DNA from: Burkholderiaceae bacterium
GTDB taxonomy: Bacteria > Pseudomonadota > Gammaproteobacteria > Burkholderiales > Burkholderiaceae_C
Reading direction: 5' to 3'
NCBI GenBank assembly: GCA_024710165.1
Contig: JANJVG010000206.1
Coordinates: 1-36,894, forward strand
Length of the DNA stretch: 36,894 bases
Below are positions 13,785 to 36,894 of this stretch, in pieces. Under the pieces are notes generated by a model. That model made no database searches and had not been told where the DNA came from. It was given only the letters and a program-made list of their open reading frames with translations. The translations under genes were made by a program, and so were the position numbers. Each line of letters begins with the position of its first letter. The stretch's first letter is position 1.

Positions 13785-13908
13785 TGCGCCTGCAAATCCG
13801 GGCGCCCGTGCAACCCCTCCCCAGGGGGCGGCTTGCGCGCACCCCCCGGCTCGGGCCACCCGGGTTTGGTGCATGATGGATGCATTCCTCCGGTGTCCGA
13901 GCCTGACC

Positions 13909-15804
13909 ATGCCCTCCTTCAGCCCCGACGAACGCCCCCTGTCCACCGGCAGCGTGCTGACGCTGCAGCAGCGCCGGCTGCGACAGATTCTGTGGACGGT
14001 GATCGCCGCTTTCGGCACGGCCGCGCTGATGAGTTTTTCCAAGGGCAGCTACACCAGCGTGTCCCTGGAACTGGTGGCCATGGCGCTGCTGGGCATCGCC
14101 TTCCGGTGGAACCAGCGCGGCGAACTGGCGAAGGCCTCCCGGCTGATGCTGGTCACCCTGATTGCGGGCCTGTTCGGGCTCATGGCCACGGGCGAAGGGC
14201 TGTACGACGAGGGCACGCTGGCGTTTCCAGCCATCCTGATCTTTGCCGGCATGTTCGGCAACCGGCGCATGCTGTGGGTGCTGATGGCCTGGCTGCAGGG
14301 GGCGCTGGTGCTGCTGTTCGTGCTGCACGAAACCGGCGTGATCCGCGCAGCGGCGGTGCCCGTGGACCTGCAGCGCCTGGTGATGATGGCGGCCATTCTG
14401 GCGGCCATCGGCTTTTTCGTCTGGCTCCTGACGAGCGACATGCAGCGCACCCTGGCGCAGCTGGCTTCGGAGAAGGAGGCACTGGCCGAATCGCACCAGC
14501 GCATCGACGTGCTGGCGCACCGCGACACGCTGACCCAGCTGCCCAACCGCACCCTGGCCAAAGACCGCCTGGAGCAGCTGCTGCTGCAGGCGCGGCGCGA
14601 CCAGTGCATGGTGGCCGCGCTGTACCTGGACCTGGACAACTTCAAGACCGTGAACGACTCGCTGGGCCACGCCGCAGGCGACGAACTGCTGTGCCTGGTA
14701 GCCGAGCGCCTGGGCTCGGGCCTGCGCGAATGCGATACGGTGGCGCGGCTCTCGGGCGACGAGTTCCTGATCCTGCTGGGAAACATCCACACCGAGGAGG
14801 CGGTGGCCACCAGCGCGGCGCGCGTGCTGCAACTGCTGGCCCAGCCCTTTGCGCTGCAGGGGCTGGACGTGGTGGTAACCACCTCGCTGGGCATTGCCGT
14901 GGCGCCGCGCGACGGATCGGACGTGGACGAGCTGCTCAAGAACGCCGATATGGCCATGTACCGCGCCAAGGATTCGGGGCGCAACGCGTTCCGCTTCTTT
15001 GATGCCAGCATGAACGAAAGCGTGGTCGAGCACCTGCACATGGCCTCGGGCCTGCGCACCGCGCTGGCGCAGGAGGAGCTGCAGGTGCACTACCAGCCGC
15101 AGTTCGACCTGCACAGCGGCCGCATCATCGGCGCCGAGGCCCTGGTACGCTGGAAGCACCCCACACTGGGCTTTGTGCCGCCGGGCAAGTTCATCCCCGT
15201 GGCCGAGCGCACCGGCCTCATCAACGAAGTGGGCGCCTGGGTGCTGCACCGCGCCTGCCTGGACGCCCGGGCCTGGCGCCAGCAGGGGCTGGGGGAGCTG
15301 ACGGTGGCGGTCAACGTCTCGCCCCTGCAGTTCCACCGCGACAGCATCGAACGCGAAGTGGCCAACGCGCTGGCCGCATGCCAATTGCCCGCCAGTGCGC
15401 TGGAGCTGGAACTGACCAAGTCCCTGCTGGTGGCCGACGCGCACCACCTCAGCGAAGTGCTGCAGCGCCTGCGCGCCCTGGGCGTGCAGATTGCCATCGA
15501 CGACTTCGGCACCGGCTACTCCAACCTCGGTTACCTGCAGCGTTTTGCGGTGCACCGGCTCAAGATCGACCAGTCCTTTGTGCGCAAGATCTGCACCAGC
15601 ACCCACGACGAAGGCATCGTGCGCGCCATCATCGAAATGGCCCACTGCCTGGGCCTGGAGGTGGTGGCCGAAGGGGTGGAAGACCGCCCGGTGCTCGAGC
15701 GCTTGCAAGGCTTTGGCTGCGAGTTTGGTCAGGGCTTTCACTGGTCGCCTGCACTTGCGGACGACGAGTTCCGCGCCTATGTGCGCAGATTCCAGCCCGC
15801 CTGA
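13909..15804 (+). CDS. Membrane GGDEF-EAL c-di-GMP protein
   Basis: This 631-residue protein has about five or six membrane helices (25-175), a short coiled coil, GGDEF (about 200-365) and EAL (about 375-625). The cyclase signature is SGDEF (282-286), a tolerated variant, with I-site R-E-C-D (273-276) five residues before it. In EAL, E410 (EAL), N469, E501, D531/D532, K552, E588 and Q608 are present at the spacing of active phosphodiesterases. However, the second Glu of the ExTE motif is Lys (E501-L-T-K504). That Glu corresponds to RocR E268, which holds loop 6, so phosphodiesterase activity may be reduced. The start could also be 13873 (12 residues longer); neither has a strong Shine-Dalgarno sequence. 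Confidence 0.9.
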   Translation: MPSFSPDERPLSTGSVLTLQQRRLRQILWTVIAAFGTAALMSFSKGSYTSVSLELVAMALLGIAFRWNQRGELAKASRLMLVTLIAGLFGLMATGEGLYDEGTLAFPAILIFAGMFGNRRMLWVLMAWLQGALVLLFVLHETGVIRAAAVPVDLQRLVMMAAILAAIGFFVWLLTSDMQRTLAQLASEKEALAESHQRIDVLAHRDTLTQLPNRTLAKDRLEQLLLQARRDQCMVAALYLDLDNFKTVNDSLGHAAGDELLCLVAERLGSGLRECDTVARLSGDEFLILLGNIHTEEAVATSAARVLQLLAQPFALQGLDVVVTTSLGIAVAPRDGSDVDELLKNADMAMYRAKDSGRNAFRFFDASMNESVVEHLHMASGLRTALAQEELQVHYQPQFDLHSGRIIGAEALVRWKHPTLGFVPPGKFIPVAERTGLINEVGAWVLHRACLDARAWRQQGLGELTVAVNVSPLQFHRDSIEREVANALAACQLPASALELELTKSLLVADAHHLSEVLQRLRALGVQIAIDDFGTGYSNLGYLQRFAVHRLKIDQSFVRKICTSTHDEGIVRAIIEMAHCLGLEVVAEGVEDRPVLERLQGFGCEFGQGFHWSPALADDEFRAYVRRFQPA

Positions 15805-22848: not shown

Positions 22849-22928
22849 GACATGGGTATTTACCCTGTCGTATGGTTGCGCGCTTGCGATGGCGCCTGTC
22901 CGTGCGCCCGCGTCCAAATACAGACCGC

Positions 22929-23984
22929 ATGCACACCCTGACCCCTTCCCCCGATGTGGCGGCCCCCGACAGCGCCGCCACCGCTTTCGAGCTGGTCTGC
23001 CCCGCGGGCAGCCTGCCTGCACTCAAGGCGGCCGTGGACAACGGCGCCAGCTGCGTTTACCTGGGCCTGCGCGACGCCACCAACGCGCGCAACTTCGCCG
23101 GGCTCAACTTCGACGAAGCCGCCATTGCCAACGGCATCCGGTACGCGCACGAGCGCGGCGCCAAAGTCTTCATGGCGCTCAACACCTACCCACAGGCGGC
23201 CAACCCGGCGCCCTGGCGCGCCGCCATGGACAAGGCCGTGGACATGGGCATGGACGCCGTCATCCTGGCCGACCCCGGCCTCATGCAATACGGCGCGCAG
23301 CACCACCCCCAGCTGCGCCTGCACCTGTCGGTGCAGGGCTCGGCCACTAGTGCCGACGCCATCAACTTCTACCGTGAGCAGTTCGGCATCGTGCGCGCGG
23401 TGCTGCCGCGCGTGCTGTCGATGGAGCAAGTGCAGCGCGTGATCGACAGCACCCCGGTGGAGATCGAGGTGTTCGGCTTCGGCAGCCTGTGCGTGATGGT
23501 CGAGGGGCGCTGCGCGCTCTCGTCCTACGTGACGGGCGAGTCGCCCAACACCCACGGTGTGTGCTCGCCCGCCAAGTCGGTGCGCTGGCAGGAAACGCCC
23601 AAGGGGCTCGAATCGCGCCTGGGCGGTGTGCTCATCGACCGCTACGCGCCCGGCGAAAACGCGGGTTACCCCACGCTGTGCAAGGGTCGCTTTGACGTGG
23701 GTGAGGACGAAAACTACTACGCCATCGAAGAACCCACCAGCCTCAATACCCTCGAACTGCTGCCAAAACTCATCAAGATGGGCGTGCGCGCCGTCAAGAT
23801 CGAAGGCCGCCAGCGCAGCCCCGCCTATGTGGCGCAGGTCACCAAGGTGTGGCGCGACGCCATCGACAACTGCCTGGCCGACCCGCTGCGCTACGCCCCC
23901 AAGACCGCCTGGATGGCCAGCCTCGACCAGGTGGCCGAAGGCCAGCAGCACACCCTGGGCGCCTACCACCGCCCCTGGAAATGA
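22929..23984 (+). CDS. ubiU: Ubiquinone biosynthesis protein UbiU (U32 peptidase-like, O2-independent hydroxylation)
   Basis: This is a 351-residue [4Fe-4S] protein of the U32 family. With UbiV it hydroxylates the ubiquinone ring without oxygen, using prephenate as hydroxyl donor in E. coli. Four cluster cysteines C188, C195, C212 and C251 have exactly the spacings (7, 17, 39) of E. coli C169/C176/C193/C232. ELVCPAGSLPALKAAVDNGA and VKIEGRQRSPAYVAQV are typical U32 motifs. The ATG at 22929 starts MHTLTPSPDVAAPDS, a slightly long N-terminal tail. The stop overlaps the start of ubiV by 4 bases. An FNR-type site upstream suggests activation under low oxygen. Confidence 0.93.
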   Translation: MHTLTPSPDVAAPDSAATAFELVCPAGSLPALKAAVDNGASCVYLGLRDATNARNFAGLNFDEAAIANGIRYAHERGAKVFMALNTYPQAANPAPWRAAMDKAVDMGMDAVILADPGLMQYGAQHHPQLRLHLSVQGSATSADAINFYREQFGIVRAVLPRVLSMEQVQRVIDSTPVEIEVFGFGSLCVMVEGRCALSSYVTGESPNTHGVCSPAKSVRWQETPKGLESRLGGVLIDRYAPGENAGYPTLCKGRFDVGEDENYYAIEEPTSLNTLELLPKLIKMGVRAVKIEGRQRSPAYVAQVTKVWRDAIDNCLADPLRYAPKTAWMASLDQVAEGQQHTLGAYHRPWK

Positions 23985-24901
23985 CGAACATGATCAAGCT
24001 CTCTTTGGGTGCGCCGCAGTACTACTGGCCGCGCCAGACCACTTTCGACTTCTACGAGGCCATGGCGGCGTCGCCGGTGGACATTGTTTACCTGGGCGAA
24101 ACCGTGTGCTCGCGCCGCAAGGAGCTGCGCCTGCAGGACTGGCTCGACATCGCCGACCTGATGCGCTCGGCGGGCAAGGAGGCCGTGCTGTCCACCCAGG
24201 TGCTGCTCGAATCGGGCGTGGAAGTCAGCACCATGCACAAGGTGACGGCCAACCCCGATTACCTCATCGAGGCCAACGACATGGGCGCCGTGCAGCGCCT
24301 GTCGGGCAAGCGCCCTTTTGTGGGTGGCCTGCACCTGAACATCTACAACCAGCCCTCGCTGGAGTGGCTGGCCCAGTTGGGCGCCACGCGCTGGGTGGCA
24401 CCGCTGGAGATGAAGCACGAAGACCTTGCTGCCCTGATCCGGAACGGCCCGCAAAATCTGCAGACCGAGGTGTTTGCCTACGGCCGCATGGCGCTGGCGT
24501 TTTCGGCGCGCTGCTTTACCGCACGCCAGCGCAACCTGCCCAAGGACGACTGCCAGTTCAGCTGCCTGGATCACCCCGATGGCCTGATGCTCAAAACCCG
24601 CGAGAGCGAGGAGTTCCTGGTGCTCAACGGCATCCAGACGCAGTCGGCGCGCGTGCACAACCTCATTGACGAACTGCCGCGCATGCAGCGCATGGGTGTG
24701 GCCGTGGCGCGCATCAGCCCGCAGGCGCAGCACACGGGCGAGATCGTGGCCCTTTTTGATGCCGTGCGCCAAGGCCGCCTGGCCCCGCGCGATGCCCGCA
24801 CCCAGCTCCAGCCGCTCATGCCCGAGCAAAGCTGCAACGGCTACTGGCATGGCCGCCCCGGCCTGGACCTGGTCGAGTCCGGGGCCCTGGCCGCTGCCTG
24901 A
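23981..24901 (+). CDS. ubiV: Ubiquinone biosynthesis protein UbiV
   Basis: This is a 306-residue U32-family [4Fe-4S] partner of UbiU in O2-independent ring hydroxylation. The cysteines C43, C178, C191 and C195 match E. coli C39/C180/C193/C197: the final spacings of 13 and 4 are identical. Motifs include YYWPRQTTFDFYEAMAASPV, VYLGETVCSRRKE and DDCQFSCLDHPDG. The ATG at 23981 overlaps the ubiU TGA. A second Met at residue 4 (MTNMIK) is an alternative start. A dispersed repeat copy lies between ubiV and ubiT. Confidence 0.93.
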   Translation: MTNMIKLSLGAPQYYWPRQTTFDFYEAMAASPVDIVYLGETVCSRRKELRLQDWLDIADLMRSAGKEAVLSTQVLLESGVEVSTMHKVTANPDYLIEANDMGAVQRLSGKRPFVGGLHLNIYNQPSLEWLAQLGATRWVAPLEMKHEDLAALIRNGPQNLQTEVFAYGRMALAFSARCFTARQRNLPKDDCQFSCLDHPDGLMLKTRESEEFLVLNGIQTQSARVHNLIDELPRMQRMGVAVARISPQAQHTGEIVALFDAVRQGRLAPRDARTQLQPLMPEQSCNGYWHGRPGLDLVESGALAAA

Positions 24902-25557: not shown

Positions 25558-25973
25558 ACCGCACCCAGCCAACCCTGCCCCTGGTCTATTCCTGCTCGGG
25601 CTGCTCCAGCGCCGCGCAGCTGGCCAACCACGTGGCGCTGCGGCTGGACCGCGCCGGCGTGGCCGAGATGTCCTGCATCGCCGGCGTGGGCGGTGACGTG
25701 CCCAGCCTGGTGCGCACGGCGCGCTCGGGCCGCCCCATCATTGCGCTGGACGGCTGCCCGCTCAACTGCGTGCAGGGCTGCCTCTCGCGCCACGGCATCG
25801 CCGCCGACCGCCACTACCAGCTGCAGCAGTACGGCGTGAAAAAGCGCCGCCACGAAGACTTCGACCCCGCGCAGGCGCAGCTGGTGCTGGAACAGGTGCA
25901 GGCCGACCTGGCGGCCCACCCGCTCTCGGCGCACGAGGCGACTGCCGACCCCACCCCCCGGATGGCCGCATGA
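25554..25973 (+). CDS. DGC-domain putative zinc-binding protein
   Basis: This is a 139-residue soluble protein with six conserved-looking cysteines: C14 and C17 (YSCSGCSS), C41 (MSCIAGVGG), and C68, C72 and C76 in D66-G-C-P-L-N-C-V-Q-G-C. The D-G-C motif and the early CxxC match the DGC family of putative metal-binding proteins, whose function is not established. It overlaps ubiT upstream and ubiX downstream by 4 bases each, so it is translationally locked into the ubiquinone operon. Possible roles are metal or Fe-S handling for UbiU/UbiV, or redox sensing; both are inference. Confidence 0.82.
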   Translation: MNRTQPTLPLVYSCSGCSSAAQLANHVALRLDRAGVAEMSCIAGVGGDVPSLVRTARSGRPIIALDGCPLNCVQGCLSRHGIAADRHYQLQQYGVKKRRHEDFDPAQAQLVLEQVQADLAAHPLSAHEATADPTPRMAA

Positions 25974-26584
25974 ACGCTGCGGCCACGCCCCCTGCAGCCG
26001 GGCAGGCGCCGCAACGCGTGGTCGTGGGCATCTCCGGTGCCAGCGGCGCGGTGTACGGCGTGCGCCTGCTGCAGGCGCTGCGCACCTGCCCCGGGGTGGA
26101 GTCGCACCTCGTCGTCTCGGACACCGGCTGGCGCACCCTGCGCCACGAAATGAACCTGGAGCCCGACGCCGTGCGCGCCCTGGCGCATGTGGCGCACGCC
26201 GCCGACAACGTGGGCGCCAGCATTGCCAGCGGCTCCTTCCAGTGCGCGGGCATGGTCATCGCCCCCTGCTCCATGCGCACCCTGGCGGCCGTGGCGCATG
26301 GCCTGGCCGACAGCCTGCTGACCCGCGCCGCCGACGTCATGCTCAAGGAACGCCGCCGCCTGGTGCTGCTGGCGCGCGAAACCCCGCTACACCTGGGCCA
26401 CCTGCGCAACATGGTCAGCGTGACCGAAATGGGCGCCATCGTCTGCCCCCCGGTGCCCGCGTTCTACCTGCACCCGCGCAGCGTGGACGACATCGTGGAC
26501 CACACCGTGGCGCGCACGCTGGACATGCTGGGCCTGGCCCATGGGCTGGGCGGGCGCTGGCAGGGGCTGGGCGCTGGCCACTGA
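25970..26584 (+). CDS. ubiX: Flavin prenyltransferase UbiX
   Basis: This 204-residue enzyme makes prenylated FMN, the cofactor of UbiD decarboxylase, from dimethylallyl phosphate and FMN. The Rossmann-like FMN site is VVVGISGASGAVYGVRLLQA. Later motifs are ASIASGSFQCAGMVIAPCSM, RAADVMLKERRRLVLLARET and PLHLGHLRNM, all typical of UbiX/Pad1. The N-terminus carries a 15-residue Ala/Pro-rich tail. The start overlaps the DGC stop (ATGA). ubiD follows after an 85-base gap largely occupied by a dispersed repeat. Confidence 0.95.
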   Translation: MNAAATPPAAGQAPQRVVVGISGASGAVYGVRLLQALRTCPGVESHLVVSDTGWRTLRHEMNLEPDAVRALAHVAHAADNVGASIASGSFQCAGMVIAPCSMRTLAAVAHGLADSLLTRAADVMLKERRRLVLLARETPLHLGHLRNMVSVTEMGAIVCPPVPAFYLHPRSVDDIVDHTVARTLDMLGLAHGLGGRWQGLGAGH

Positions 26585-26600
26585 CACGGGCTGGACTGGG

Positions 26601-26667
26601 TTCTTTTTGCTATATTTTTTATAGCTGCTTGCGCATTATCCATAAGCGCAAAAGCCACTTTTTATCC
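26601..26667 (+). repeat. Comamonadaceae dispersed repeat forming the ubiD leader
   Basis: The sequence is ttctttttgctatatttttt then atagctgcttgcgcattatc cataagcgcaaaagccactt tttatcc. The copy ends 2 bases before the ubiD ATG and leaves no recognisable Shine-Dalgarno sequence. It also contains TTGCTATATTTTTTATAG, AT-rich enough to host a promoter. Confidence 0.75.
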
Positions 26668-26669
26668 AA

Positions 26670-28154
26670 ATGCACTACCACGACCTGCGCGACTTCATCC
26701 AGCAGCTTGAACAGCGCGGCGAGCTGCGCCGTGTGCGCGAGCCGGTGTCGCCCCACCTGGAGATGACGGCCCTGTGCGACCGCGTGCTGCGCGCGGGCGG
26801 CCCGGCCATGCTGTTCGAGAACCCCACGGGCCACCGCATGCCGGTGCTGGGCAACCTGTTCGGCACGCCCGAGCGCGTGGCGCGTGCCATGGGGGTGGAG
26901 AGCATCGCCGGGCTTCGGCCGTTTGGCGAGCTGCTGGCCTCGCTCAAGGAGCCCGAGGCGCCCAAGGGCTTCAAGGAGATGGTGGGCATGGGCAGCCTGC
27001 TCAAGACGCTGTGGAACATGGCGCCCAAGGAGCGCAGCAGCCCGCCGTGCCAGGAGGTGGTGTGGGAAGGTTCTGACGTGGACCTGGCGCGCCTGCCCAT
27101 CCAGCACTGCTGGCCCGGCGACGTGGCGCCGCTGGTCACCTGGGGCCTGGTCATCACGCAGGGGCCGCACAAGACGCGGCAGAACCTGGGCATCTACCGC
27201 CAGCAGGTGCTGGGCCGCAACAAGCTCATCATGCGCTGGCTGGCCCACCGGGGCGGCGCGCTCGACTTCCGCGACCACTGCGCCATGAACCCCGGCCAGC
27301 CCTACCCAGTAGCCGTGGCGCTGGGGGCCGACCCGGCGACCATCCTGGGCGCCGTCACGCCCGTGCCCGACAGCCTGTCGGAATACCAGTTCGCCGGCCT
27401 GCTGCGCGGAGCGCGCACCGAGGTGGCACCCGCACTGGGCGTGCCGCTGCGCGTGCCGGCCAACGCCGAAATCGTGCTCGAAGGCCATATCCAGCCCGAC
27501 GCCACGCATGCCAGCGGCTGGGAGCATGCGCTCGAAGGGCCGTATGGCGACCACACGGGCTATTACAACGAGCAGGCCGAGTTCCCGGTATTCACGGTGG
27601 ACCGCATCACGCTGCGCAAGGATGCGATCTACCACTCCACCTACACCGGCAAGCCGCCCGACGAGCCCGCCGTGCTGGGCGTGGCGCTGAACGAGCTGTT
27701 CATCCCTCTGCTGCAGCGCCAGTTCCCCGAGATCGTGGACTTCTACCTGCCGCCCGAGGGCTGCAGCTACCGCATGGCGCTGGTGCGCATCAAGAAGGCC
27801 TACCCCGGCCACGCGCGCCGCGTGATGATGGGCGTGTGGAGCCACCTGCGCCAGTTCATGTACACCAAGTTCATCGTGGTGGTGGACGAGGACGTGGACG
27901 TGCGCGACTGGAAGGAGGTCGTCTGGGCGCTGACCACGCGCATGGACCCGGCACGCGACACCATGGTGGTGGAGCACACCCCCATCGACTACCTCGACTT
28001 CGCCTCGCCCGTGAGCGGCCTGGGCAGCAAGATGGGCATGGACGCCACGAACAAGTGGCCCGGCGAGACGCAGCGCGAATGGGGCCGCACCATCACCATG
28101 GATGCCGATGTGACGGCGCGCATGGACGCGCTGTACGCAACGCTCGGTCTCTGA
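26670..28154 (+). CDS. ubiD: 4-hydroxy-3-polyprenylbenzoate decarboxylase UbiD
   Basis: This 494-residue prFMN-dependent decarboxylase removes the carboxyl group of the ubiquinone precursor. [20 protein letters not shown] is the usual N-terminus. The cofactor/substrate region includes [30 protein letters not shown] and [40 protein letters not shown] follows, and the C-terminus is [15 protein letters not shown]. Length equals the family norm. It belongs functionally with ubiX directly upstream and completes the O2-independent ubiquinone set. The leader is made of a dispersed repeat. A strong hairpin terminator follows the stop. Confidence 0.96.
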
Positions 28155-28217: not shown

Positions 28218-30143
28218 TTACTGCTGCGCCGGGGCTTGGGCCGGGGCGGCCATCAGGAAGGCGTCGGAGAAGCAGGCGTCCTCGCCCAGGCCCTGGGCCA
28301 GGAAGGCCGGCACGGCGGTCTCCACCATCTTCACCGAGCCGCAGAGGTAGACCTCGTGGCCGCTGAGGTCGGCAAAATCTTTCAGCATGGACTCGTGCAC
28401 CAGGCCCGTGCGGCCCGTCCAGCCGTCGCCCTCTGAGGGCTCGGAAACCACGGGCACCACGGTGAAGTTCGGGTGCTCCTTTTGCCACTGTTCGCACAGT
28501 GCCAGCATGTAGAGGTCCTTGCGCTGGCGCACACCCCAGTACAGGCGCATGGGCCGCTGCACACCGCGCTGGAAGGCATCCTCGACGATGCTCTTGATGG
28601 GTGCGAAGCCGGTGGCGCCGGCCACGAACAGGATGGGGTGCATGCTGTCGCGCAGCGTGAAGCTGCCGCGCGGGCCCTCGAAGCGGATGGGGTCTCCCAC
28701 CTTCATGCCGTCAAACACATGGGTGGTGAAACGCCCGCCAGGAATCAGGCGCACATGCAGCTCAATCTGCTCGCGCGTGTGCGGCGCATTGGCAAACGAG
28801 AAGGCGCGGCGCTGGCCGTCGTCCAGCAGGATGTCGATGTACTGACCGGCTTCGAAATCCAGGGTCTGGCCCTGGGGCAATGCAATCAGCACGCGCATCA
28901 CGTCCTCGGCCAGGCGCTCCAGCCCGGCCACCGTGCCGCTGTGCACCGTGGCGCTGACGGCCGTCGCGCTCGGAACGAATCCATCCACCTCGATGACCAC
29001 GTCGCCTTTCGGCACCGCGCAGCACATCAGCGCCTTGCCCTGGGCCTTGAGGGCATCGGGCAGCGCACTGCGCTGGTAGGGGCGGTGCTCAACGCTGCCA
29101 TGCTCCACGCTGCACAGGCACAGCCCGCAGCCGCCATTGCGGCATTCATAGGGCAGCGCCAGGCCTTCGCGCAGGCCTGCATCGAGGATGGTCTCGTCTT
29201 CGCGCACCTTGAATTCTGCGCTGGCGCCCTGTGCGCCATGTGCCACGACCAGGTGCTTGCGCTTGTCGCCACGGCGGAACTTCGGCGGCCACCAGGGCAG
29301 CAGACACAGCACGACAGAACCGCCCACCACCAGCGCCCAGACCTGACCCAGCGGCCATTCGGTCAGCAGCGGGAAGAGAGCCAGGTAGAACCAGTCCAGC
29401 TCCACGCTGGTCACGGCGGTGCTCAGATCGGACGCCCCGCCCTGGCTGTGCACAGGCGCCACCAGCGACAGCACGAGCATGGACAGCAGCAGACCCACCA
29501 CGATGGGGCGTGGCGGCGTGGTGCGCGCCTTGGGCACGCGCTGCACGTGGATCCACATCACCATCAGCAGCACCAGCGGAATGCCCAGGTGCATGAACGA
29601 CAGCAGGGTGAAGAAGCGGTCGCCCACATGGTCGGAGTAGACGAAGTTGCGCATCAGCGTGCCGCCGAAGCTCGGCAGCCAGTCGAGCCACTCGAAGGTG
29701 GCCACGGTGACGTACTGCGCGAGCTGGTCCCAGGGCAACATGTAGCCGTTGATGCCGGAGGCGTACACCATCCAGATCAGCATCACGCCGGTCACCCATG
29801 AGAACCAGCGGAAGCCGTGGTACAGGTTGAAGGCGAAGTAGCGCAGCATGTGCAGCATCATGGTGAGCACCATGGCGTCGGAGGCGTAGCGGTGGATGCT
29901 GCGCATGATGCCGCCCGCGTACCACTGATCCTGCGACAGGGACACCACGGACGAATAGGCCTCGCTCAGGCCGGTTTCGAAGAAGATGTAGACGTACAGC
30001 CCGGTCCCGCCCACTACCCAGAAAAGGAAGAAGGTGATGGCGCCCAGATGGTAGAAGGGGTTGATACGGTCGCCGAACGCCGCGTTGAACAGTCCCTCGG
30101 CGCGCAGAAACAGCCACTGCAGCAAGGCCTGGAAATGTTTCAT
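28218..30143 (-). CDS. Cytochrome b - [2Fe-2S] ferredoxin - FAD/NAD(P) reductase fusion
   Basis: This is a 641-residue three-part protein. Residues 1-205 form a four-helix cytochrome b N-terminal domain with both heme pairs intact: H84/H98 (SIHRYASDAMVLTMMLHMLR) and H185/H199 (FMHLGIPLVLLMVMWIHVQR). Two more membrane helices follow (about 211-231 and 252-283). Residues 297-390 are a plant-type ferredoxin with C334-x4-C339-x2-C342-x31-C374. Residues about 400-630 are an FNR-type reductase with an FAD motif (RRAFSFANAP) and NAD(P) motifs (FVAGATGFAPIKSI, EVYLCGSVKMV). It should move electrons between cytosolic NAD(P)H and membrane hemes/quinone. It is the last gene of the operon; its start overlaps the preceding stop by 4 bases. 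I know no named homologue. Confidence 0.9.
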   Translation of the reverse strand: MKHFQALLQWLFLRAEGLFNAAFGDRINPFYHLGAITFFLFWVVGGTGLYVYIFFETGLSEAYSSVVSLSQDQWYAGGIMRSIHRYASDAMVLTMMLHMLRYFAFNLYHGFRWFSWVTGVMLIWMVYASGINGYMLPWDQLAQYVTVATFEWLDWLPSFGGTLMRNFVYSDHVGDRFFTLLSFMHLGIPLVLLMVMWIHVQRVPKARTTPPRPIVVGLLLSMLVLSLVAPVHSQGGASDLSTAVTSVELDWFYLALFPLLTEWPLGQVWALVVGGSVVLCLLPWWPPKFRRGDKRKHLVVAHGAQGASAEFKVREDETILDAGLREGLALPYECRNGGCGLCLCSVEHGSVEHRPYQRSALPDALKAQGKALMCCAVPKGDVVIEVDGFVPSATAVSATVHSGTVAGLERLAEDVMRVLIALPQGQTLDFEAGQYIDILLDDGQRRAFSFANAPHTREQIELHVRLIPGGRFTTHVFDGMKVGDPIRFEGPRGSFTLRDSMHPILFVAGATGFAPIKSIVEDAFQRGVQRPMRLYWGVRQRKDLYMLALCEQWQKEHPNFTVVPVVSEPSEGDGWTGRTGLVHESMLKDFADLSGHEVYLCGSVKMVETAVPAFLAQGLGEDACFSDAFLMAAPAQAPAQQ

Positions 30144-31591
30144 GGTTGTGTCGTCTGTATTTGGCCTGCGGACGCAGGCGTGTTGCGAATGGCCTGGATC
30201 ACCACGACGACGAACAGCAGTCCGCCGATGATGGCAATCAGGCCGCCCAGGCCCATGAGGCCCATGCCGGCCACTTCGGCGGTGCTGCGCAGCACCTGCT
30301 CGGCGCCCGCCACCTTGCGTTGCACGCCATAGCCACCCGACCAGACCAGGCCGATGATGTGCATCAGCTGGCCCGCGCCATAGAGCCAGGGCTGCCAGGT
30401 GGCCAGGCGCCCCTGCGGCGCACCGTAGCCCAGCGCGGGCAGCACCTTGTAGACCACGCCCATGAGCGCCAGCGTGACGCCCACGATGCAGCCGTGGTAG
30501 TGCGCGGGAATGCGCACGTTGCTGCCATTGATGAAGACGCCGATCACGCCGCCCGCCGCGAACAGCAGCACGGACGACAGCAGCGCGGCGCGCAAGGGGC
30601 GCATCGTCTCCTGGGTCAGGCGGTGGTTGAACACGGCCACCACCACGGCCAGCCCCACGGGCACGATGGCTGGGCCACCGCCCACGCGCATGGCCCAGGT
30701 GAGCAGGTTGCGATGCTCCACCGAGGCCACGTCATAGGCCAGGTAGGCGTAGGGGGTGACGAAAACCCCCACCAGGGCCAGGCCGAGCATCATCAGCGTG
30801 ACGCGCGGGCTCAGGGGCACGCGTGCGCCGCAGGCGTTGGCCAGCCAGAGCCAGCCCACGAGCATGAGCAGCGTCCAGGTGAACTGCAGCGCATGCCCGC
30901 CCCCCCAGAACAGAATCTCGTAGTAGGCCTTGCCGTCGAGCGACTGCGGAACCACCGCATACGACCAGGCGAACGACAGCAGGGCCACCGCCATGGACAC
31001 GGCCGCCGCATTCAGGCCGAAGTGCAGGGCCCCCTGGCCGCCGAACCCGAAGCCCAGCCGCGGCGCCAGCAGCATGCTGCGCAGCACCAGAACGCCCACA
31101 CCCAGACCGAACACGGCCAGCCCCGCCAGAAACAGCGGGGACGACAGCACCGGAATGTAGTTGGCCATGATCGGCTCGCCCGGATTGAGGAACGGTGCGA
31201 GTGACATCGCCGCGGTGCCCGCTGCCGTGATCCACAGCGCGATCCAGCCCCACCCGGACCCGCGCTGCGAGCTGTTGAGGCTCCACAGCAGCCCGCCGAG
31301 CGCGACAAACCAGACCAGCACCGACAAATCCACATGCAGCACCAGCGAGACGTGGAAAAAATTGGCCGCAGGCAGCATCTGGTTGATGCCCGGCGTGCGC
31401 GAAAGCACCAGCAGGATGGAGAACAGGCCCGAGCCAATCAGTGCAAACAGTCCCAGCCAAAGCCAGCCCCGCGCCAGGGCGCGGCGGGCGTCCTGGGGCA
31501 CGGCAAGATCGTATTCCGCCTGGGTCTGCGCTGCAGCCGGGGGCGAATGGCCGCTGGTGCGGCCGAAAGGGGGGCGGGGGATGGCGCTCAT
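30140..31591 (-). CDS. Divergent heme-copper oxidoreductase subunit I-like protein
   Basis: This 483-residue protein has about 12 membrane helices and resembles cbb3/NOR-type subunit I. Candidate heme and metal ligands are H80/H86 (FFHVSLVLHVDLSVLVWF), H233 (FWGGGHALQFTWTLLML), H293 (VEHRNLLTW) and H364/H366 (PAHYHGCIVG). The helix VI site reads H-A-L-Q-F, so the oxidase Tyr (or NOR Glu) at H+4 is Phe. The usual helix VII HH pair is E292-H293. A standard CuB/heme site is therefore not intact as read here. It overlaps both neighbours by 4 bases. It might be a NO reductase-like enzyme, an oxidase with a different metal site, or a non-catalytic electron carrier. Confidence 0.78.
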   Translation of the reverse strand: MSAIPRPPFGRTSGHSPPAAAQTQAEYDLAVPQDARRALARGWLWLGLFALIGSGLFSILLVLSRTPGINQMLPAANFFHVSLVLHVDLSVLVWFVALGGLLWSLNSSQRGSGWGWIALWITAAGTAAMSLAPFLNPGEPIMANYIPVLSSPLFLAGLAVFGLGVGVLVLRSMLLAPRLGFGFGGQGALHFGLNAAAVSMAVALLSFAWSYAVVPQSLDGKAYYEILFWGGGHALQFTWTLLMLVGWLWLANACGARVPLSPRVTLMMLGLALVGVFVTPYAYLAYDVASVEHRNLLTWAMRVGGGPAIVPVGLAVVVAVFNHRLTQETMRPLRAALLSSVLLFAAGGVIGVFINGSNVRIPAHYHGCIVGVTLALMGVVYKVLPALGYGAPQGRLATWQPWLYGAGQLMHIIGLVWSGGYGVQRKVAGAEQVLRSTAEVAGMGLMGLGGLIAIIGGLLFVVVVIQAIRNTPASAGQIQTTQP

Positions 31592-32091
31592 GACAGGATG
31601 ATTCCTCCCCGCTCGGCGCTGAAGTCGATGATCAGCACCTGGGCAGGCTTGAGGGTAACGGTGGAGTCGTGCTGGTGCGTGAAGCCCTCCGCAGTCTTGT
31701 CGTCCTTCAGGCGGACGGTGATGCGGTGCTCACCTGCGGGAACATCGACGCTGTGATAGACCGTGGAGGCACCATCACGCGAAAGGCCCGAGGGGTTGGC
31801 TGTTTTCTGGAACACCGTTTTGCCGTCGATGTCCAGTTCGACATGCACGGGGGAGCGCTCGCGCTCGCACTTCATGGGTGCACGCATGTTGGGCGCAAGC
31901 TTCGCCAGCTCCTCCTTGGTGTAGGGGCGGCAGTCCGCCACGCGCACCCCATGGTGGACGAAGCTGATCTTGATCAGCGCGTGGTCGGCCTGCAGCGGGT
32001 GGTATACCGGCCAGCGTGAAAAAACGCCTATGGCCAGCGCGAAACAGCTATACAAAAGGGCCTGGCCTGTCCAGTTCAAGGCTCGGTTCAT
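31588..32091 (-). CDS. Small membrane-anchored protein of unknown function in the respiratory operon
   Basis: This 167-residue protein has one N-terminal membrane helix (about 8-25) and a hydrophilic domain that probably faces the periplasm. Two cysteines (C54 in VADCRPYTKE and C74 in PMKCERERSP) and several His (H46-H47, HQHD near 139-142) could bind metal or heme. The second half has an alternating beta pattern (VHVELDIDG, HSVDVPAGEHRITVRLKDD) reminiscent of an immunoglobulin-like domain. I recognise no family. It overlaps the genes on both sides by 4 bases, so it is almost certainly a subunit or assembly factor of the complex encoded here. Confidence 0.8.
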   Translation of the reverse strand: MNRALNWTGQALLYSCFALAIGVFSRWPVYHPLQADHALIKISFVHHGVRVADCRPYTKEELAKLAPNMRAPMKCERERSPVHVELDIDGKTVFQKTANPSGLSRDGASTVYHSVDVPAGEHRITVRLKDDKTAEGFTHQHDSTVTLKPAQVLIIDFSAERGGIILS

Positions 32092-33674
32092 GGGGTACTC
32101 TCCAGAGGCAAAAATGGTTCGGTGGCGCCGGTGCGTGCGCGCAATTGGCTGAGGGCGGCGGCCAGCGCCGCCTCGTCGCCACGGTCCGCCCAGGCCACAT
32201 GCCAGCGTTCCGCAGGCACCGTGGCCCGTAGATGGGGGGGGCGCTCACCACCCAGGCGCTGCTGCGTCCAGCGCTGGCCCAGGCGGAATTCGCATCCGCC
32301 TTCGCGGCAGCCGCTGACAAGCACGCCGTCAGCGCCGCCGCGCAGCGCGTATTCGATGAATGAGGGCGGGAGCATACCAGCGCACACCAGGCTGAAATGC
32401 AGCACGTCGGGAGCGGCCGTGGTGTCAGCGCGCGCGCCGTGGTCACAGCCGAAGACGACGTAGCGGCGCGGGCCGGGCATGGCGGCCAGGCCTTGCAGCA
32501 GGCGCTCGCGCAGGTCATGGATGGGCCACTGCGGCATGTCGATCCCGGTGACCAGCCTCTCTGTGCTGCGGAATGGTGTGGAGGAGGGACAGGCACCAAC
32601 GCAGATGCCGCAGCTTGCGCACAGGTCTGCATCGACCACCGCCAGTTCCACGCCTCGCCGTCCGTTGGTGTGCGGCACCATGGTGACGGCGGAGTAGGGG
32701 CAATCGTCGAAGCAGCGACGGCAGCCGCTGCAGTTGCCCGGATCGACAACGGCCACGGGCTGCGCACGCGCGGGCAGCAGTGGCAGTGCCAGCAGCACGG
32801 CGAATGCCGCCACGAGCAGAATCCACACCGCGATGGGGGAAGTGGCATCCGTCAGCGGATGGATGAAGAGCAGTATCCAGTCGAGCTGCAGGTTCTGGGG
32901 AACCGTGGCCAGGTTGGCCGGCCCCTGGCTGCGCACGGGAAGCACGAGCGCCAGCAGCAGCAAGGTGGCCGCCGTGGCCAGTGCCATCGCACGGGGCGGA
33001 AAGACGCGGGCGTGGCTGATGCGCTGGATGTGGAACCACAGCCCGAACACCATCAGCAGGGGCATGCCCAGGTGAACGAAGACGAACAGCGTGAACAGGC
33101 GGTTCAGGTTGGCGTCGCCGAGGAAATTGCGTGCGAGGGGCGACGCAAGAAAGGGCAGCGCGTCGAACCACTCCGCCGTGGCGATGGCGGAGAACTGGCC
33201 CAGCTGGTCCCAGTTGAGCCAGAAACCGCCGATGCCGCAGACGAAGGCCAGGGCAATCAGGGGAATGCCGGTCAGCCAGGGAACGGCGCGAAAGCCCTTG
33301 TAGCGGCCCAGCACCCATTCTCGCGCGAGGTGCGCGAGCATGACGATGACGAAGCCGTCGGCCGCGTAGCGGTGCAGTCCGCGCAGGGCCGTGCCCAGCA
33401 TCCAGGGCACCTGCGACAGTTCATCAATGGAGCGGTATGCCCCCGCCGCCGAGGTGTCGAGCAGCACATAGAGCACCACGCCACTGACCACCAGCAGCCA
33501 GAAGAGCATGAACCCCAGTGCACCGAGATGTTTGAGCGGGTTCAGGGCGCCGCCAAACGGCACATCGAAGACATGCTCAATGGCGCGGTAGGCATCGGCG
33601 ATGCGGGGAACCGGGGAGGTGGACTGCTGAACGGGGAGGTCTTCGCGAACGAAGCCTGAACCAGAAGGCGACAT
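32088..33674 (-). CDS. Cytochrome b - 2x[4Fe-4S] - MvhD/FlpD fusion
   Basis: This is a 528-residue multi-domain electron carrier. The cytochrome b N-terminal domain (about 35-220) has complete heme pairs H101/H115 and H201/H215. Two further membrane helices (about 230-247, 262-297) follow. Two ferredoxin [4Fe-4S] motifs are C315-x2-C318-x2-C321-x3-C325 and C352-x2-C355-x2-C358-x3-C362. The C-terminal domain (about 400-480) resembles the delta subunit of methyl-viologen hydrogenase (MvhD/FlpD), with C410, C431, C456 and C461 as likely [2Fe-2S] ligands. That domain normally passes electrons to heterodisulfide reductase-type flavoproteins. ATG 33674 lies 13 bases after the SCO stop. The membrane part is clearly paralogous to the fusion protein at 28218-30143. 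Confidence 0.88.
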   Translation of the reverse strand: MSPSGSGFVREDLPVQQSTSPVPRIADAYRAIEHVFDVPFGGALNPLKHLGALGFMLFWLLVVSGVVLYVLLDTSAAGAYRSIDELSQVPWMLGTALRGLHRYAADGFVIVMLAHLAREWVLGRYKGFRAVPWLTGIPLIALAFVCGIGGFWLNWDQLGQFSAIATAEWFDALPFLASPLARNFLGDANLNRLFTLFVFVHLGMPLLMVFGLWFHIQRISHARVFPPRAMALATAATLLLLALVLPVRSQGPANLATVPQNLQLDWILLFIHPLTDATSPIAVWILLVAAFAVLLALPLLPARAQPVAVVDPGNCSGCRRCFDDCPYSAVTMVPHTNGRRGVELAVVDADLCASCGICVGACPSSTPFRSTERLVTGIDMPQWPIHDLRERLLQGLAAMPGPRRYVVFGCDHGARADTTAAPDVLHFSLVCAGMLPPSFIEYALRGGADGVLVSGCREGGCEFRLGQRWTQQRLGGERPPHLRATVPAERWHVAWADRGDEAALAAALSQLRARTGATEPFLPLESTP

Positions 33675-33687
33675 TGAACGGCGGGCG

Positions 33688-34542
33688 TCAGACGCTGCGC
33701 GCCCCCTTGGAGCGGGCGCCCGGCCGGTTCGAGCGCCACTCATTGAAGAAAAACACCAGCATGAGAATGAAAAAAGTCACGCCGCCCGCGATCTGGATGG
33801 GCAGTGTGTAGTCCACGCGGTACGAGCCGGTCTTGGGGTCGTACACGGTGCACAGAATGCGAATGCGGTCCATCACGTCGTCGAGCATCGTGGCGGGCTC
33901 TACCGGCATGCCGCTGAGCAGCTGCTTGATCGGCTCGCCGATCTCGGCGGGCTTGATGCTCTCACCATAGATCTGGCGCACGATGCGGCCGTCGGCATCG
34001 AGCAGCGACACCTGGAGCACATGGTCGAAGCCGGCCGGGGTCGGCGCATAGACAAAACCGAAGTCCTTCGCAATGGCACCAATCGTGCTCATGGAAGGGC
34101 TCAGAAATTCCCAGCTGGGCTGGTTGATCTGGTACTGGGCGGCAAACGCCTTGAGCGCCACGGGCGAATCGTCGGGCTGGTTGAAACCAATGCTCACCAC
34201 GTTGAACTGGCTGGTGCCGAAGACTTTCTGCAGGCCCTGCACGGTTTCCTGCAGCGAACGCGTGGTGGTGGGGCAGACCTGGAAGCAGCCTGTGTAGATA
34301 AAGCTGACCAGCAGCGGCTTGCCCCGGTAAGAGGACAGCCGCACGGGACGGCCCTCGCGGTCGAGCAGGGTATGGTCGCCGACTTTGCGGCCAACCGCCT
34401 CCTGGCTCAGGCGCAGCGCCATATCACGATCCAGGCCCATGTCGGTGTGCGACGCGGCCTGGGAAGAATGGGGCAGCAGCAGGCCCATGACCAGACACAG
34501 CGCCACCGCGAGGTATCCGCGAAGAAGGGCTGTGGTATGCAT
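33688..34542 (-). CDS. SCO1/SenC family copper chaperone-like protein
   Basis: This 284-residue exported thioredoxin-fold protein has a signal sequence or N-terminal helix (residues 7-29, ending SQAAS). The copper site is C86-F-Q-V-C90 (FIYTGCFQVCPTTTRSLQET) with H174 in GFDHVLQVSLLD. It also has a C-terminal membrane helix (about 250-270). SCO proteins deliver copper or electrons to the CuA/CuB centres of heme-copper oxidases. In ammonia oxidisers a senC gene accompanies the norSY genes of an unusual NO reductase. An AGGAA Shine-Dalgarno sequence precedes the ATG at 34542. It lies between heme O synthase and the first cytochrome b fusion in the operon. Confidence 0.92.
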   Translation of the reverse strand: MHTTALLRGYLAVALCLVMGLLLPHSSQAASHTDMGLDRDMALRLSQEAVGRKVGDHTLLDREGRPVRLSSYRGKPLLVSFIYTGCFQVCPTTTRSLQETVQGLQKVFGTSQFNVVSIGFNQPDDSPVALKAFAAQYQINQPSWEFLSPSMSTIGAIAKDFGFVYAPTPAGFDHVLQVSLLDADGRIVRQIYGESIKPAEIGEPIKQLLSGMPVEPATMLDDVMDRIRILCTVYDPKTGSYRVDYTLPIQIAGGVTFFILMLVFFFNEWRSNRPGARSKGARSV

Positions 34543-34564
34543 GGGGAGTTCCTGCCGCTGGAAG

Positions 34565-35464
34565 TTATCGCATGAAGCCGTCGATGCAGGCAGCGACCAG
34601 CAGGACGCTCAACTGCACCAGCGATGCGAAAAAGGAGCCCATGGCCGAGGCACGGTTGGTGTCGCGCGCCAGAAGCCAGGATTTGTACACGAAATGCAGG
34701 CCGCCAGCGAGTGCGCCAACGGCATAGACGGGACCCGCACCGAAGCCCAGGGGCAACAGCGAGGCCACGAACAACGCCACCGTGCTGACCAGAACCGTGC
34801 GCGCTGCACGCTCAGGCCCCACGACGACGGGCAGCATGGGCACGCCTGCCTGGGCATAGTCCGCACGGTTGGCGATGGCCAGGCTCCAGAAGTGGGGCGG
34901 CGTCCAGAGGAACAGAACGAGCGCCAGCAGCATGGGCAGGGGCCCGAGCTGCGGATCGATGGCGGCGGCACCCGCGAGCACCGCGAAGCTGCCTGCCAGG
35001 CCGCCGATGACGATGTTCATCGTGCTGCGGCGCTTCAGCCACAGGGTATAGACCACCCCGTAGAAGAAGGCGCCCAGGAAGACGTACAGCGCGGCCATCC
35101 CGTTCAGCACCAGCCACGCCGCCGCCACGGCCCCCGCCAGCAGCACGGCCATGAGGGCCAGCCAGGCGGGGTGGTGGGGCAGCGCACCGGTGGCGAACGC
35201 GCGGCCGCGCGTACGCGCCATCAGGCGGTCGCTTTCGTGCTCGACATACTGGTTGAACGCACCCGCGCTCGCCGACGCGATGAGCACCGACAGCGCCAGC
35301 ACGAGGACCTGTGCCATGCTGGGCGAGGGGCCGGGCGAGACCGCCATGCCCACGAGCGCGGTAATCATGATCAGCACACCGATGCGCAGCTTGAACAGCG
35401 AGATGACGTCGCGCGTCAACTGCGCTGCACTGCGCCCGGCGGGCTTGAGCGTGGTGGTGTGCAT
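34565..35464 (-). CDS. Protoheme IX farnesyltransferase (heme O synthase)
   Basis: This 299-residue UbiA-superfamily membrane prenyltransferase (CyoE/CtaB) converts heme B to heme O with farnesyl diphosphate. The allylic diphosphate/Mg motif is N71-x3-E75-x3-D79 followed by RLMARTRGRAF. The second conserved regions are YTLWLKRRSTMNIVIGGLAG and LWTPPHFWSLAIANRADYAQ. About nine membrane helices are predicted. It is placed 15 bases after a heme-copper subunit I gene and before SCO, so the enzyme complex probably uses heme O or A in at least one site. The genome may carry another copy for the main oxidases. Confidence 0.94.
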   Translation of the reverse strand: MHTTTLKPAGRSAAQLTRDVISLFKLRIGVLIMITALVGMAVSPGPSPSMAQVLVLALSVLIASASAGAFNQYVEHESDRLMARTRGRAFATGALPHHPAWLALMAVLLAGAVAAAWLVLNGMAALYVFLGAFFYGVVYTLWLKRRSTMNIVIGGLAGSFAVLAGAAAIDPQLGPLPMLLALVLFLWTPPHFWSLAIANRADYAQAGVPMLPVVVGPERAARTVLVSTVALFVASLLPLGFGAGPVYAVGALAGGLHFVYKSWLLARDTNRASAMGSFFASLVQLSVLLVAACIDGFMR

Positions 35465-35479
35465 GGCGCAGTATCCCGC

Positions 35480-36894
35480 TTAGCTAAGGCCCCAGAGCTG
35501 ACCGAGGTACTTCCAGTTGATGAAGTAGTAGAGCACGAAGGTCACGAGGAAGAACACAGCCAGCACGAAAGTGCCAGGAGCCACGAAACCTGCGGAACCG
35601 TACGTCTGGGCGGCAGCGGTGGGAGCAGCGCGCATCACCGGGGTGAACTTGGCGCTCACGGTGCCGGTATCCAGCTTCTTGCCCCACAGCAGCGAGCCGA
35701 CGGTGATGTAGATGTAGATCGCACCACCGGCGATGGCAATGATGCCGCCAACGCTGACCAGGCCCATCATCAGGTAGGCAGCGCCGGGCCATTCGTAGGC
35801 CAGGGCCGCGCCGCTGAAGGCCATGTCCCAGTGACGGCGGGAAACGCCCAGCGTGCCGGCGCCCATCATCACGAGGCAGAAGAAGTACATCGAGAAACCG
35901 AACAGGTACGGCTGGATCTTGGCCAGGCCCGGGTTGATCATCTCGCGACGGAACAACACGGGAATCAGGAAGTACGTCAGCGACATGAAGGTCAGCGTCG
36001 TACCGATCACCACGGTGGCGTGGAAGTGGCCAGGCACGTAAATGGTGTTGTGGATCAGCAGGTTCAGCTGCTCGGTACCCATCATCACGCCGGTGATGCC
36101 GCCCAGGAAGCCGAAGCCCACGAGCGAGATGAACACGCCGGAGAACACGGGGTTGCCCCAGGGTGCCTTGCGCAGCCACTCAAACAGGCCCTTGTCGTAG
36201 CCGCGTGCGCGCTGGGCCACTTCCATGGCACCAGGAATCGACAGCGCGTGGATCATCGAAGCCAGCACGGCGAAGTACATGAAGTAGCTGGTGTTCACCA
36301 CTTTCCACTCGGTGCTGATGCCGGGGTCGGCCAACAGGTGGTGGGCACTGGCAAGCTGCAGGAACAGGATGTACAGCAGGAAGGCGCCACGGCTGACGCG
36401 CTCGGACATGGGCTTGGCACCGAAGGCGATGGCCGCCACGGCATACCAGATCGAGATGTGCGCCGCCACGTTGATTTGCTGCGACGAGTGCCCGAAAGCC
36501 CACCAGATGGTGCGGTAGATCAATGGATCGACTTCACTGATGAGGCCAATGGCCATCATGTAGGTGGGGATCAGGATGATCGCGCCGGAGGCAATGGTGA
36601 ACACCGCGATGATGGCGGCCGTGATGGCGCCAAACGTCACCAGGGGCACCGAGCCTTCGTAGGTTTTTTCGCGCTTGGCGACCACCAGCGTGCCGAAAAA
36701 CACAAAACACGCAATCAGGGCGCCGACGGCGAACAGGATGAGGCCCAGGTAGAACCACGACGACGCCATCATGGGCACGTACGAGGTCATCATGACGCTG
36801 GAGCCGCCCTGGAACACCGTCAGGTTGTTCATCACCGCGCCGATCAGCATCAGTGCGAAGGCCGCCCAGGCGATCTTGGGTGTGGCAATGCGGC
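35480..36894 (-). CDS. Heme-copper oxidoreductase subunit I (B-type-like, lacks active-site Tyr), 5' end outside window
   Basis: 471 codons are visible; the frame stays open to the window edge and an ATG at 36850 is internal. The relevant ligands, counted from that Met, are H121 (WWAFGHSSQQ), H170/H171 (LASAHHLLADPGIS) and H275/H277 (VPGHFHATVV). CuB and heme ligands of helices VI, VII and X are thus present. The oxidase Tyr at H+4 of helix VI (HPxVY in B-type ba3 enzymes) is Gln125, and the Pro is Ser. The overall pattern (ADPG, HNTIYVPGHFH) is closest to B-type enzymes. Lack of the Tyr is a property of NO reductases. Ammonia oxidisers have a comparable norY-senC arrangement, so a sNOR-like function is my best guess. 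Confidence 0.88.
   Translation of the reverse strand, partial: RIATPKIAWAAFALMLIGAVMNNLTVFQGGSSVMMTSYVPMMASSWFYLGLILFAVGALIACFVFFGTLVVAKREKTYEGSVPLVTFGAITAAIIAVFTIASGAIILIPTYMMAIGLISEVDPLIYRTIWWAFGHSSQQINVAAHISIWYAVAAIAFGAKPMSERVSRGAFLLYILFLQLASAHHLLADPGISTEWKVVNTSYFMYFAVLASMIHALSIPGAMEVAQRARGYDKGLFEWLRKAPWGNPVFSGVFISLVGFGFLGGITGVMMGTEQLNLLIHNTIYVPGHFHATVVIGTTLTFMSLTYFLIPVLFRREMINPGLAKIQPYLFGFSMYFFCLVMMGAGTLGVSRRHWDMAFSGAALAYEWPGAAYLMMGLVSVGGIIAIAGGAIYIYITVGSLLWGKKLDTGTVSAKFTPVMRAAPTAAAQTYGSAGFVAPGTFVLAVFFLVTFVLYYFINWKYLGQLWGLS

Follow-up and report, generated by a model that had tools for sequence, protein, structure and literature searches.

An eNOR-type gene cluster of a Burkholderiaceae bacterium with two cytochrome b fusions and a copper-less heme-copper homologue

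The gene cluster and its recurrence

The window analysed here is the complete 36,894-base contig JANJVG010000206.1 of a Burkholderiaceae draft genome (225 contigs, 3.83 Mb, 94% complete, 6.7% contaminated). Its last quarter, positions 28218-36894, is occupied by seven co-directional minus-strand genes (Table 1): a heme-copper subunit I of the kind found in eNOR, a nitric oxide (NO) reductase; the heme O synthase CtaB; a SCO/SenC copper chaperone; two diheme cytochromes b fused to soluble redox domains, CybMvhD and CybFNR; a small membrane-anchored protein; and a second protein of the heme-copper oxidase fold, HCO2, in which the CuB ligands of helix VII are missing. The reading that we favour, with moderate confidence, is that of an eNOR cluster provided with its own assembly factors and with a dedicated membrane module for electron input. 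The open reading frames (ORFs) and domain searches bear out the positions, order, direction and domain content given to the seven genes in the initial annotation. The operon start falls beyond the contig end, and subunit I is partial because the contig ends within its gene.

Table 1. Genes of the cluster, in transcription order, and two quinone-synthesis neighbours
Feature	Coordinates	Strand	Evidence
eNOR-type heme-copper subunit I, 5' part lost at contig end	35480..36894	-	PF00115, 177 bits; 470 aa
CtaB/CyoE heme O synthase (UbiA)	34565..35464	-	TIGR01473, 264.5 bits (cut-off 210.3)
SCO/SenC copper chaperone, membrane anchored	33688..34542	-	PF02630, 54 bits
CybMvhD, diheme cytochrome b-2x[4Fe-4S]-MvhD/FlpD [2Fe-2S]	32088..33743	-	PF00033, Fer4, PF02662
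Small anchored protein, 167 aa	31588..32091	-	no family match at E 0.01
HCO2, heme-copper-oxidase fold without helix-VII CuB ligands	30140..31591	-	COX1, 41.3 bits (cut-off 34.8; weak)
CybFNR, diheme cytochrome b-[2Fe-2S] ferredoxin-FAD/NAD(P) reductase	28218..30143	-	PF00033, PF00111, PF00970, PF00175
UbiU, O2-independent ubiquinone synthesis	22872..23984	+	NF047963, 558 bits, above cut-off
UbiV, O2-independent ubiquinone synthesis	23849..24901	+	NF047965, 396 bits, above cut-off; match from residue 50, start uncertain

Three 4-base ATGA overlaps connect the last four genes (32088-32091, 31588-31591 and 30140-30143), as had been noted at the outset. They suggest translational coupling; the fixed stoichiometry previously read into them does not follow, since one or the other fusion is absent from some intact clusters. 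The 56-base overlap between the SCO and CybMvhD ORFs of the window is probably a start-codon artefact, because the starts chosen by script in loci L029 and L030 leave a gap of 11-12 bases (L and G numbers are labels of loci and genomes in this analysis). The true CybMvhD start probably lies inside the ORF, downstream of 33743.

A scan of species genomes yielded 244 loci with relatives of HCO2, the best 80 of which were kept as near loci; chosen as the best HCO2 matches, they are biased towards that protein. Their named hosts include Simplicispira, Acidovorax, Comamonas, Castellaniella, Ramlibacter and Herbaspirillum. In none of the 80 is the small protein or HCO2 missing, and each has one or both of the cytochrome b fusions. 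An eight-gene set, led by a CuA subunit II, is present in 58 (52 of them in the commonest order), a count that includes the doubtful L097, whose two-fusion call overlaps itself. Many of the incomplete loci are cut by contig ends and others are without CtaB or one fusion; CybMvhD is missing from the intact stretches of L041, L043 (Castellaniella defragrans DSM 12141), L050 and L094, and CybFNR from those of L087 and L098, whereas L024 (Simplicispira lacusdiani) has the full cluster. The co-occurrence of both fusions with both subunit I genes and the upstream cupredoxin subunit II that the initial annotation proposed to look for are therefore both found among relatives, and the same recurrence disposes of the possibility that the fusion frames, and the cluster with them, are assembly artefacts. 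With starts chosen by script, the 4-base overlap between the small protein and HCO2 genes is seen in 64/80 near loci and that between HCO2 and CybFNR in 44/70. The alignments referred to below took near-full-length proteins: 74 of HCO2, 65 of subunit I, 64 of the CuA subunit, 78 of the small protein and 70 of each fusion.

Catalytic core, with probable NO reduction and heme A

By sequence, the closest solved relatives of the first subunit I are the B-family oxidases 7deg and ba3. The motif GHSSQQ of the window aligns with GHPVVY of 7deg, which puts a Gln at the helix-VI Tyr position; this Gln (Q235) is found in 65/65 full-length relatives, as is each of six heme and CuB His (H69, H231, H280, H281, H385 and H387, including the helix-VII HH pair). 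The low-spin ligand H69 lies beyond the contig end and the other five His are encoded in the window. The excerpted text of PMC8756737 gives the residue at the Tyr place as Tyr in oxidases, Glu in cNOR and qNOR, Asn in sNOR and CuANor, Gln in eNOR and Asp in gNOR. The cross-linked Tyr of O2 reductases is thus missing from the first subunit I (a helix-VII Tyr of the C-family type was looked for by eye only), Q235 stands where cNOR and qNOR have Glu at helix-VI His+4, and the labels sNOR and gNOR were rejected on the same residue, which is Gln in 65/65 and not Asn or Asp.

In the relatives a 179-amino-acid CuA subunit II is encoded directly upstream of subunit I, with its CuA ligands kept in 64/64; the CuA subunit expected of an eNOR is accordingly seen in relatives only, the corresponding gene of the window being off the contig end. 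The SCO family has a GCFQVCP motif and a conserved His, and its likely role is CuA maturation. These features agree with what excerpted accounts say of eNOR (the 'ba3-a1' B-family heme-copper oxidase of Hemp/Murali), with which the cluster shares the Gln-for-Tyr subunit I, the upstream CuA subunit II and SCO: ba3-a1, a subtype of the B family, turned out to be an NO reductase that uses reduced cytochrome c and was given the name eNOR (PMC8879329, in excerpt), and the ba3-a1 operon of Magnetospirilli is without the Tyr and contains SCO genes (PMC6431628, in excerpt). Judged by these sequence signatures the core is of the known eNOR type, so that 'undescribed', as the initial annotation had it, does not apply to this part of the cluster. 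In comparison with eNOR as portrayed in the excerpted secondary accounts, the two fusions, the small protein and the copper-less heme-copper homologue are additional here. The sNOR of ammonia oxidisers (norSY-senC-orf1) likewise combines a B-type subunit I, a predicted cupredoxin second subunit and senC with norS in one cluster; it differs in being listed with Asn at the Tyr place, where the present family has Gln, and in its four-gene cluster.

The motif GHxxQQxN recurs in four plasmid homologues, two of Thermus and one each of Thermomicrobium and Defluviimonas, for the most part annotated as oxidase subunit I of 'cbb3-type' or 'b(o/a)3-type'. In a maximum-likelihood tree, one Thermus copy and the Thermomicrobium and Defluviimonas copies group with the window family (96/99). 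The eNOR pair of the Thermus plasmid pTF24b has nirS and an Rrf2 regulator in its vicinity; tblastn with the NirS of pTF24b found a nirS or nirN-like gene in 14/80 near loci and in 10 of 20 eNOR loci of other genomes, which were fetched from the phylum sample from outside the near set. NirS-like matches (at least 44% identity, some of them partial) account for 11 near loci and four of the others; full-length matches of 26-29% identity, which may at best be NirN-like, account for three and six. In G057 a divergent cd1 match starts ~1.2 kb from the cluster; next come a hemerythrin, then (by eye) a cytochrome c, and a regulator of the Crp type. Hemerythrin genes stand beside the eNOR or a nirS-type gene at L192:14517-14921 and L201:15618-16181. 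A Pfam search on one chosen ORF of L201, probably another frame, gave no nirS match. Across 60 related genomes, the host included, a strong cd1-family match (E<=1e-100) is present in 18/18 HCO2-positive and 14/42 HCO2-negative genomes (one-sided Fisher p 5e-7, with shared ancestry not removed and with PF02239 covering NirS paralogues too).

The Gln signature of eNOR and the nirS or nirN-like neighbours make NO reduction the most likely activity, and the cluster core is predicted, with high confidence, to be an NO reductase; of the two substrates entertained in the initial annotation, NO and oxygen at low tension, it is NO that gains. That the core is instead a high-affinity O2 reductase for microaerobic growth is very unlikely. 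Such a role has been argued to be possible for the sNOR of Nitrosomonas europaea, whose genes, in the excerpted account, rise 2.7 to 10.8-fold under oxygen limitation; against it stand the replacement of the active-site Tyr by Gln in all 65 relatives, the nirS-type genes that recur beside the cluster, and the CtaD and CcoN with which the host is equipped for oxygen (the CtaD-like protein scores 647 bits against a cut-off of 670.75, only part of it having been scanned).

Of the 60 near loci that had enough upstream sequence, 51 have a CtaA-like (heme A synthase) gene in linkage with the cluster, divergently upstream in 46 and downstream in five; its identity was confirmed by Pfam for L024 only. 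On a plasmid of Thermomicrobium roseum a single CtaA-CtaB fusion protein is encoded directly after the eNOR genes (L194:10838-12640). This linkage and this fusion make heme A in eNOR likely, and the sequences of CtaB, SCO and the linked CtaA suggest that the three would serve the maturation of heme A and CuA.

HCO2, a heme-copper homologue without the helix-VII ligands

HCO2 has the twelve-helix fold of a heme-copper subunit I. Its AlphaFold2 model (predicted local distance difference test score, pLDDT, 88) matches this fold in Foldseek at E 5e-8 and superimposes by VIA on cytochrome c oxidase subunit I at Z ~30 over ~417 residues (root-mean-square deviation 3.4; Z 27.6-30.4 in the 50 matches listed); a search by sequence for solved relatives returned none at E 1. 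H86, H233, H364 and H366 are kept in 74/74. Of the three CuB His that are diagnostic of the superfamily only H233 is kept: in the profile alignment the HH pair of eNOR falls opposite Ala282 and a gap, just before Tyr283, and a mixed alignment of 26 rows that includes 20 distant homologues shows the helix-VII HH in 0/26. Q236 is invariant (74/74), Tyr283 is found in 73/74 and Ala282 in 66/74, and the residue at H233+4 is Phe (F237) in 74/74, neither the Tyr of oxidases nor the Glu of cNOR. HCO2 therefore has its twelve helices in common with the subunits I of the A, B and C families and of cNOR and differs from them in being without the helix-VII CuB pair; the count of two heme-copper subunits in the initial annotation stands for the fold and does not stand in the catalytic sense.

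An E-H-R motif (292-294) was considered as a substitute copper pair. Its counterpart in eNOR is E-W-K, it marks the beginning of helix VIII in the model, and it lies 60 residues from H233, compared with the 49 that separate H231 and H280 of eNOR; the motif was rejected on these grounds. The usual spacing between the helix-VI His and the helix-VII pair is 49-51. The label gNOR/NorGHJ was dropped as well, the residue at the relevant place being Phe and not Asp.

HCO2 is likely to be non-catalytic. That it should be a second terminal reductase of NO or O2, acting through an unusual metal site or heme-only chemistry and giving the cluster two active sites, as the initial annotation had it, is extremely improbable: the complete fold, the conserved heme His and the near-invariance of H233, Q236 and Tyr283 would suit it, and the absence of both helix-VII copper ligands in the family and the Phe at H+4 speak against it. 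A more specific assignment of HCO2, as an electron conduit, is tentative, and we hold it at a little below even confidence.

HCO2 and its 20 distant homologues group in a single clade (99/100), separate from eNOR, CtaD, CcoN and NorB, the last three on long branches. In a phylum sample of 398 genomes the HCO2 profile matches in 59 and the eNOR profile in 30, all 30 lying within the 59 (in one of the 59, G219, the sole HCO2-profile match is a cross-match to its own eNOR); plasmids gave no match to HCO2. Among the 20 distant HCO2 loci, an eNOR subunit I is encoded at L120 and L123, and two short contigs, L117 and L118, carry other genes of the cluster. Ten of the 20 have a CtaA-like gene, which in five overlaps HCO2 by 4-23 bases; L119:8599-10987, L126:7943-10359, L128 and L135, all of family f57, show such an overlap. 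At L126 a gene resembling cytochrome b561 and a weak match to a cupredoxin lie close by. Distant copper-less homologues are found near large multiheme cytochromes c at L129:9121-11256 (by eye) and L133:8813-14457 (Pfam), and the homologue of L129 also bears TPR repeats.

This genomic company raises another possibility, that HCO2 is a partner of CtaA, a heme holder or electron carrier for heme A formation, brought into the cluster by the need of eNOR for heme A and unrelated to the fusions. The linkage of CtaA-like genes to near and distant HCO2 loci and the CtaA-CtaB fusion that follows eNOR in Thermomicrobium would fit; the nearest operon mates of HCO2, to judge from the frequency of 4-base overlaps, are nevertheless the small protein and CybFNR rather than CtaA, half of the distant loci show no CtaA-like gene, and we regard this explanation as decidedly improbable. 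By title and abstract opening, the literature yielded nothing on point concerning CuB-less heme-copper proteins. As far as the literature was checked, the partner assembly of this eNOR, above all the copper-less HCO2, is a new variant.

The cytochrome b fusions and a proposed electron input

The four heme-ligand His of the cytochrome b part are present in 70/70 members of each fusion family, and CybMvhD has, also in 70/70, the eight Cys for two 4Fe-4S clusters and four Cys in its MvhD part. The cytochrome b parts of the two fusions are 38-55% identical (median 45%, 63 locus pairs), which makes them paralogues that could pair. With cytochromes bc1 and b6f the fusions share the four-His diheme cytochrome b (PF00033); they differ in other respects: both fusions have a conserved Asp-Trp, DW(F), near the place of the PEWY motif of bc complexes (placed by eye), they carry C-terminal soluble redox domains, and Pfam and NCBIfam domain searches found no Rieske protein and no cytochrome c1 among the cluster genes of the window, so that the initial exclusion of a bc1 complex is upheld. 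ExtP, of selenite and tellurite operons, is the top NCBIfam match of CybMvhD (87 bits) and the best cytochrome b match of CybFNR (109 bits), both scores being far below the cut-off of 290 bits. A cytochrome b/b6 fusion of Accumulibacter that Garcia Martin and colleagues reportedly described in 2006 has NAD(P), FAD and 2Fe-2S domains like those of CybFNR. The literature search found nothing on a fusion of the cytochrome b/MvhD type with a NO reductase.

The small protein combines one transmembrane helix with a beta-sandwich (AlphaFold2 pLDDT 92) and has two invariant Cys in 35/35 rows. Pfam and NCBIfam gave no match to it at E 0.01, and its best Foldseek match has an E of 0.011; no library match supports the label FixH/CcoH, which was considered for it.

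Within the stretches fetched, 12 of the 20 eNOR loci from outside the near set have CybMvhD and the small protein (L181 on the opposite strand), as does the plasmid of Defluviimonas, an alphaproteobacterium, in which CuA, eNOR, CtaB, SCO, CybMvhD, the small protein and a hemerythrin are found together. HCO2 and CybFNR are present in addition in only one of the 20, L185, which belongs to the family of the host. The f57-family clusters L117, L118 and L120 hold two CybMvhD genes. A plausible series, which may be read in either direction, would link the core by itself (Thermus; also Thermomicrobium, where heme genes join it), the core with CybMvhD and the small protein, and the core with HCO2 and CybFNR as well. 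From the co-occurrence of CybMvhD with eNOR and from the domains of the fusions we infer that the fusions feed eNOR; that they feed the same respiratory pathway is a claim to which we lend somewhat better than moderate confidence.

The favoured reading, an eNOR with assembly factors and its own membrane electron-input module, may be put in mechanistic terms as follows. CybFNR would be the entry point for electrons of NAD(P)H, by way of FAD and 2Fe-2S, and CybMvhD for those of a ferredoxin-like or thiol partner, by way of its 4Fe-4S clusters and MvhD domain; the two paralogous cytochromes b would pair in the manner of the cytochrome b dimer of bc complexes, and HCO2 would be a non-catalytic heme subunit of this input module, held by the small anchored protein. 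Electrons could then reach ubiquinone or move straight on towards the periplasm, to enter eNOR through CuA and reduce NO to nitrous oxide (N2O) at the heme-CuB site. A bolder version regards HCO2 as a member of a wider CuB-less family in which a catalyst has turned into a membrane electron carrier, and which here, with the fusions, would form a direct NAD(P)H- or ferredoxin-to-NO complex that bypasses bc1 and cytochrome c; this we consider doubtful.

A number of observations tell against the favoured reading. No CybMvhD is seen in eight of the 20 eNOR loci from outside the near set (in three, L176, L178 and L179, the stretch stops at a contig end near SCO), and tblastn found no fusion in the fetched eNOR stretches of the two Thermus plasmids and of Thermomicrobium; the electron-input module is therefore dispensable. 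Moreover, eNOR is reported to use reduced cytochrome c (PMC8879329, a secondary source, in excerpt) and on that account needs no direct feed. Nor is it the only NO reductase of the host, which, besides CtaD and CcoN, also encodes a NorB-like cNOR (so named by its motif HLWVE, read by eye; no NOR model matched it), and NosZ was not found in the 94%-complete host draft. Sixteen of the 20 distant HCO2 loci show no sign of an eNOR cluster nearby and 10 of the 20 have CtaA, which argues for another role of HCO2. L064, alone among 74, has an HH pair at 286-287, residue 286 being His in 42 and Tyr in 31, so that a weak metal site in HCO2 is possible by sequence. In the Thermus thermophilus plasmid copies L193 and L195, HFK replaces HFH at the helix-X pair: the eNOR family is thus not uniform in its heme ligands, one of which may be replaced. 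Finally, the Tyr-to-Gln rule by which NO and O2 reduction are told apart is itself based on sequence.

Some of these points would be accommodated by two machines in one operon: an eNOR that runs on cytochrome c, and a pair of fusions that use the proton motive force to drive electrons from quinol to NAD(P)+ and ferredoxin, as a redox valve for anaerobic carbon metabolism. A role of this kind has reportedly been proposed for a cytochrome b/b6-FAD/NAD fusion of Accumulibacter. The complete four-His cytochrome b and the Asp-Trp at the PEWY place in each fusion, the eNOR stretches of Thermus and Thermomicrobium that have no fusion, and the reported use of cytochrome c all favour it. So does the neighbourhood of the cluster. 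UbiU, UbiV, UbiX and UbiD are encoded at 22872-24901 (+) and 25970-28154 (+), convergently to the eNOR cluster, and NCBI family names place UbiU and UbiV in anaerobic ubiquinone biosynthesis; with UbiU, UbiV and UbiD adjoining the cluster, a quinone pool can form without oxygen. (UbiU is found in 13/80 near loci, UbiV in 13/80 and UbiD in 15/80.) CybMvhD and the small protein nevertheless track eNOR across families and onto a plasmid, which exceeds what would be expected of an unrelated valve, and we judge the two-machine account improbable.

If the fusions do feed eNOR, bacteria could couple NADH or ferredoxin to NO reduction without bc1 and cytochrome c, and the energy accounting of denitrifiers would be altered. 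The product of NO reduction, N2O, is a greenhouse gas, and it is easy to mistake enzymes of the eNOR type for cytochrome oxidases in annotation. A heme-copper fold that has lost its copper site would, for its part, reveal to what uses the fold can be put after catalysis is lost, and would caution annotators against counting copper-less homologues among the oxidases. Elsewhere in the window, a GGDEF-EAL protein is encoded at 13702-15804 (+).

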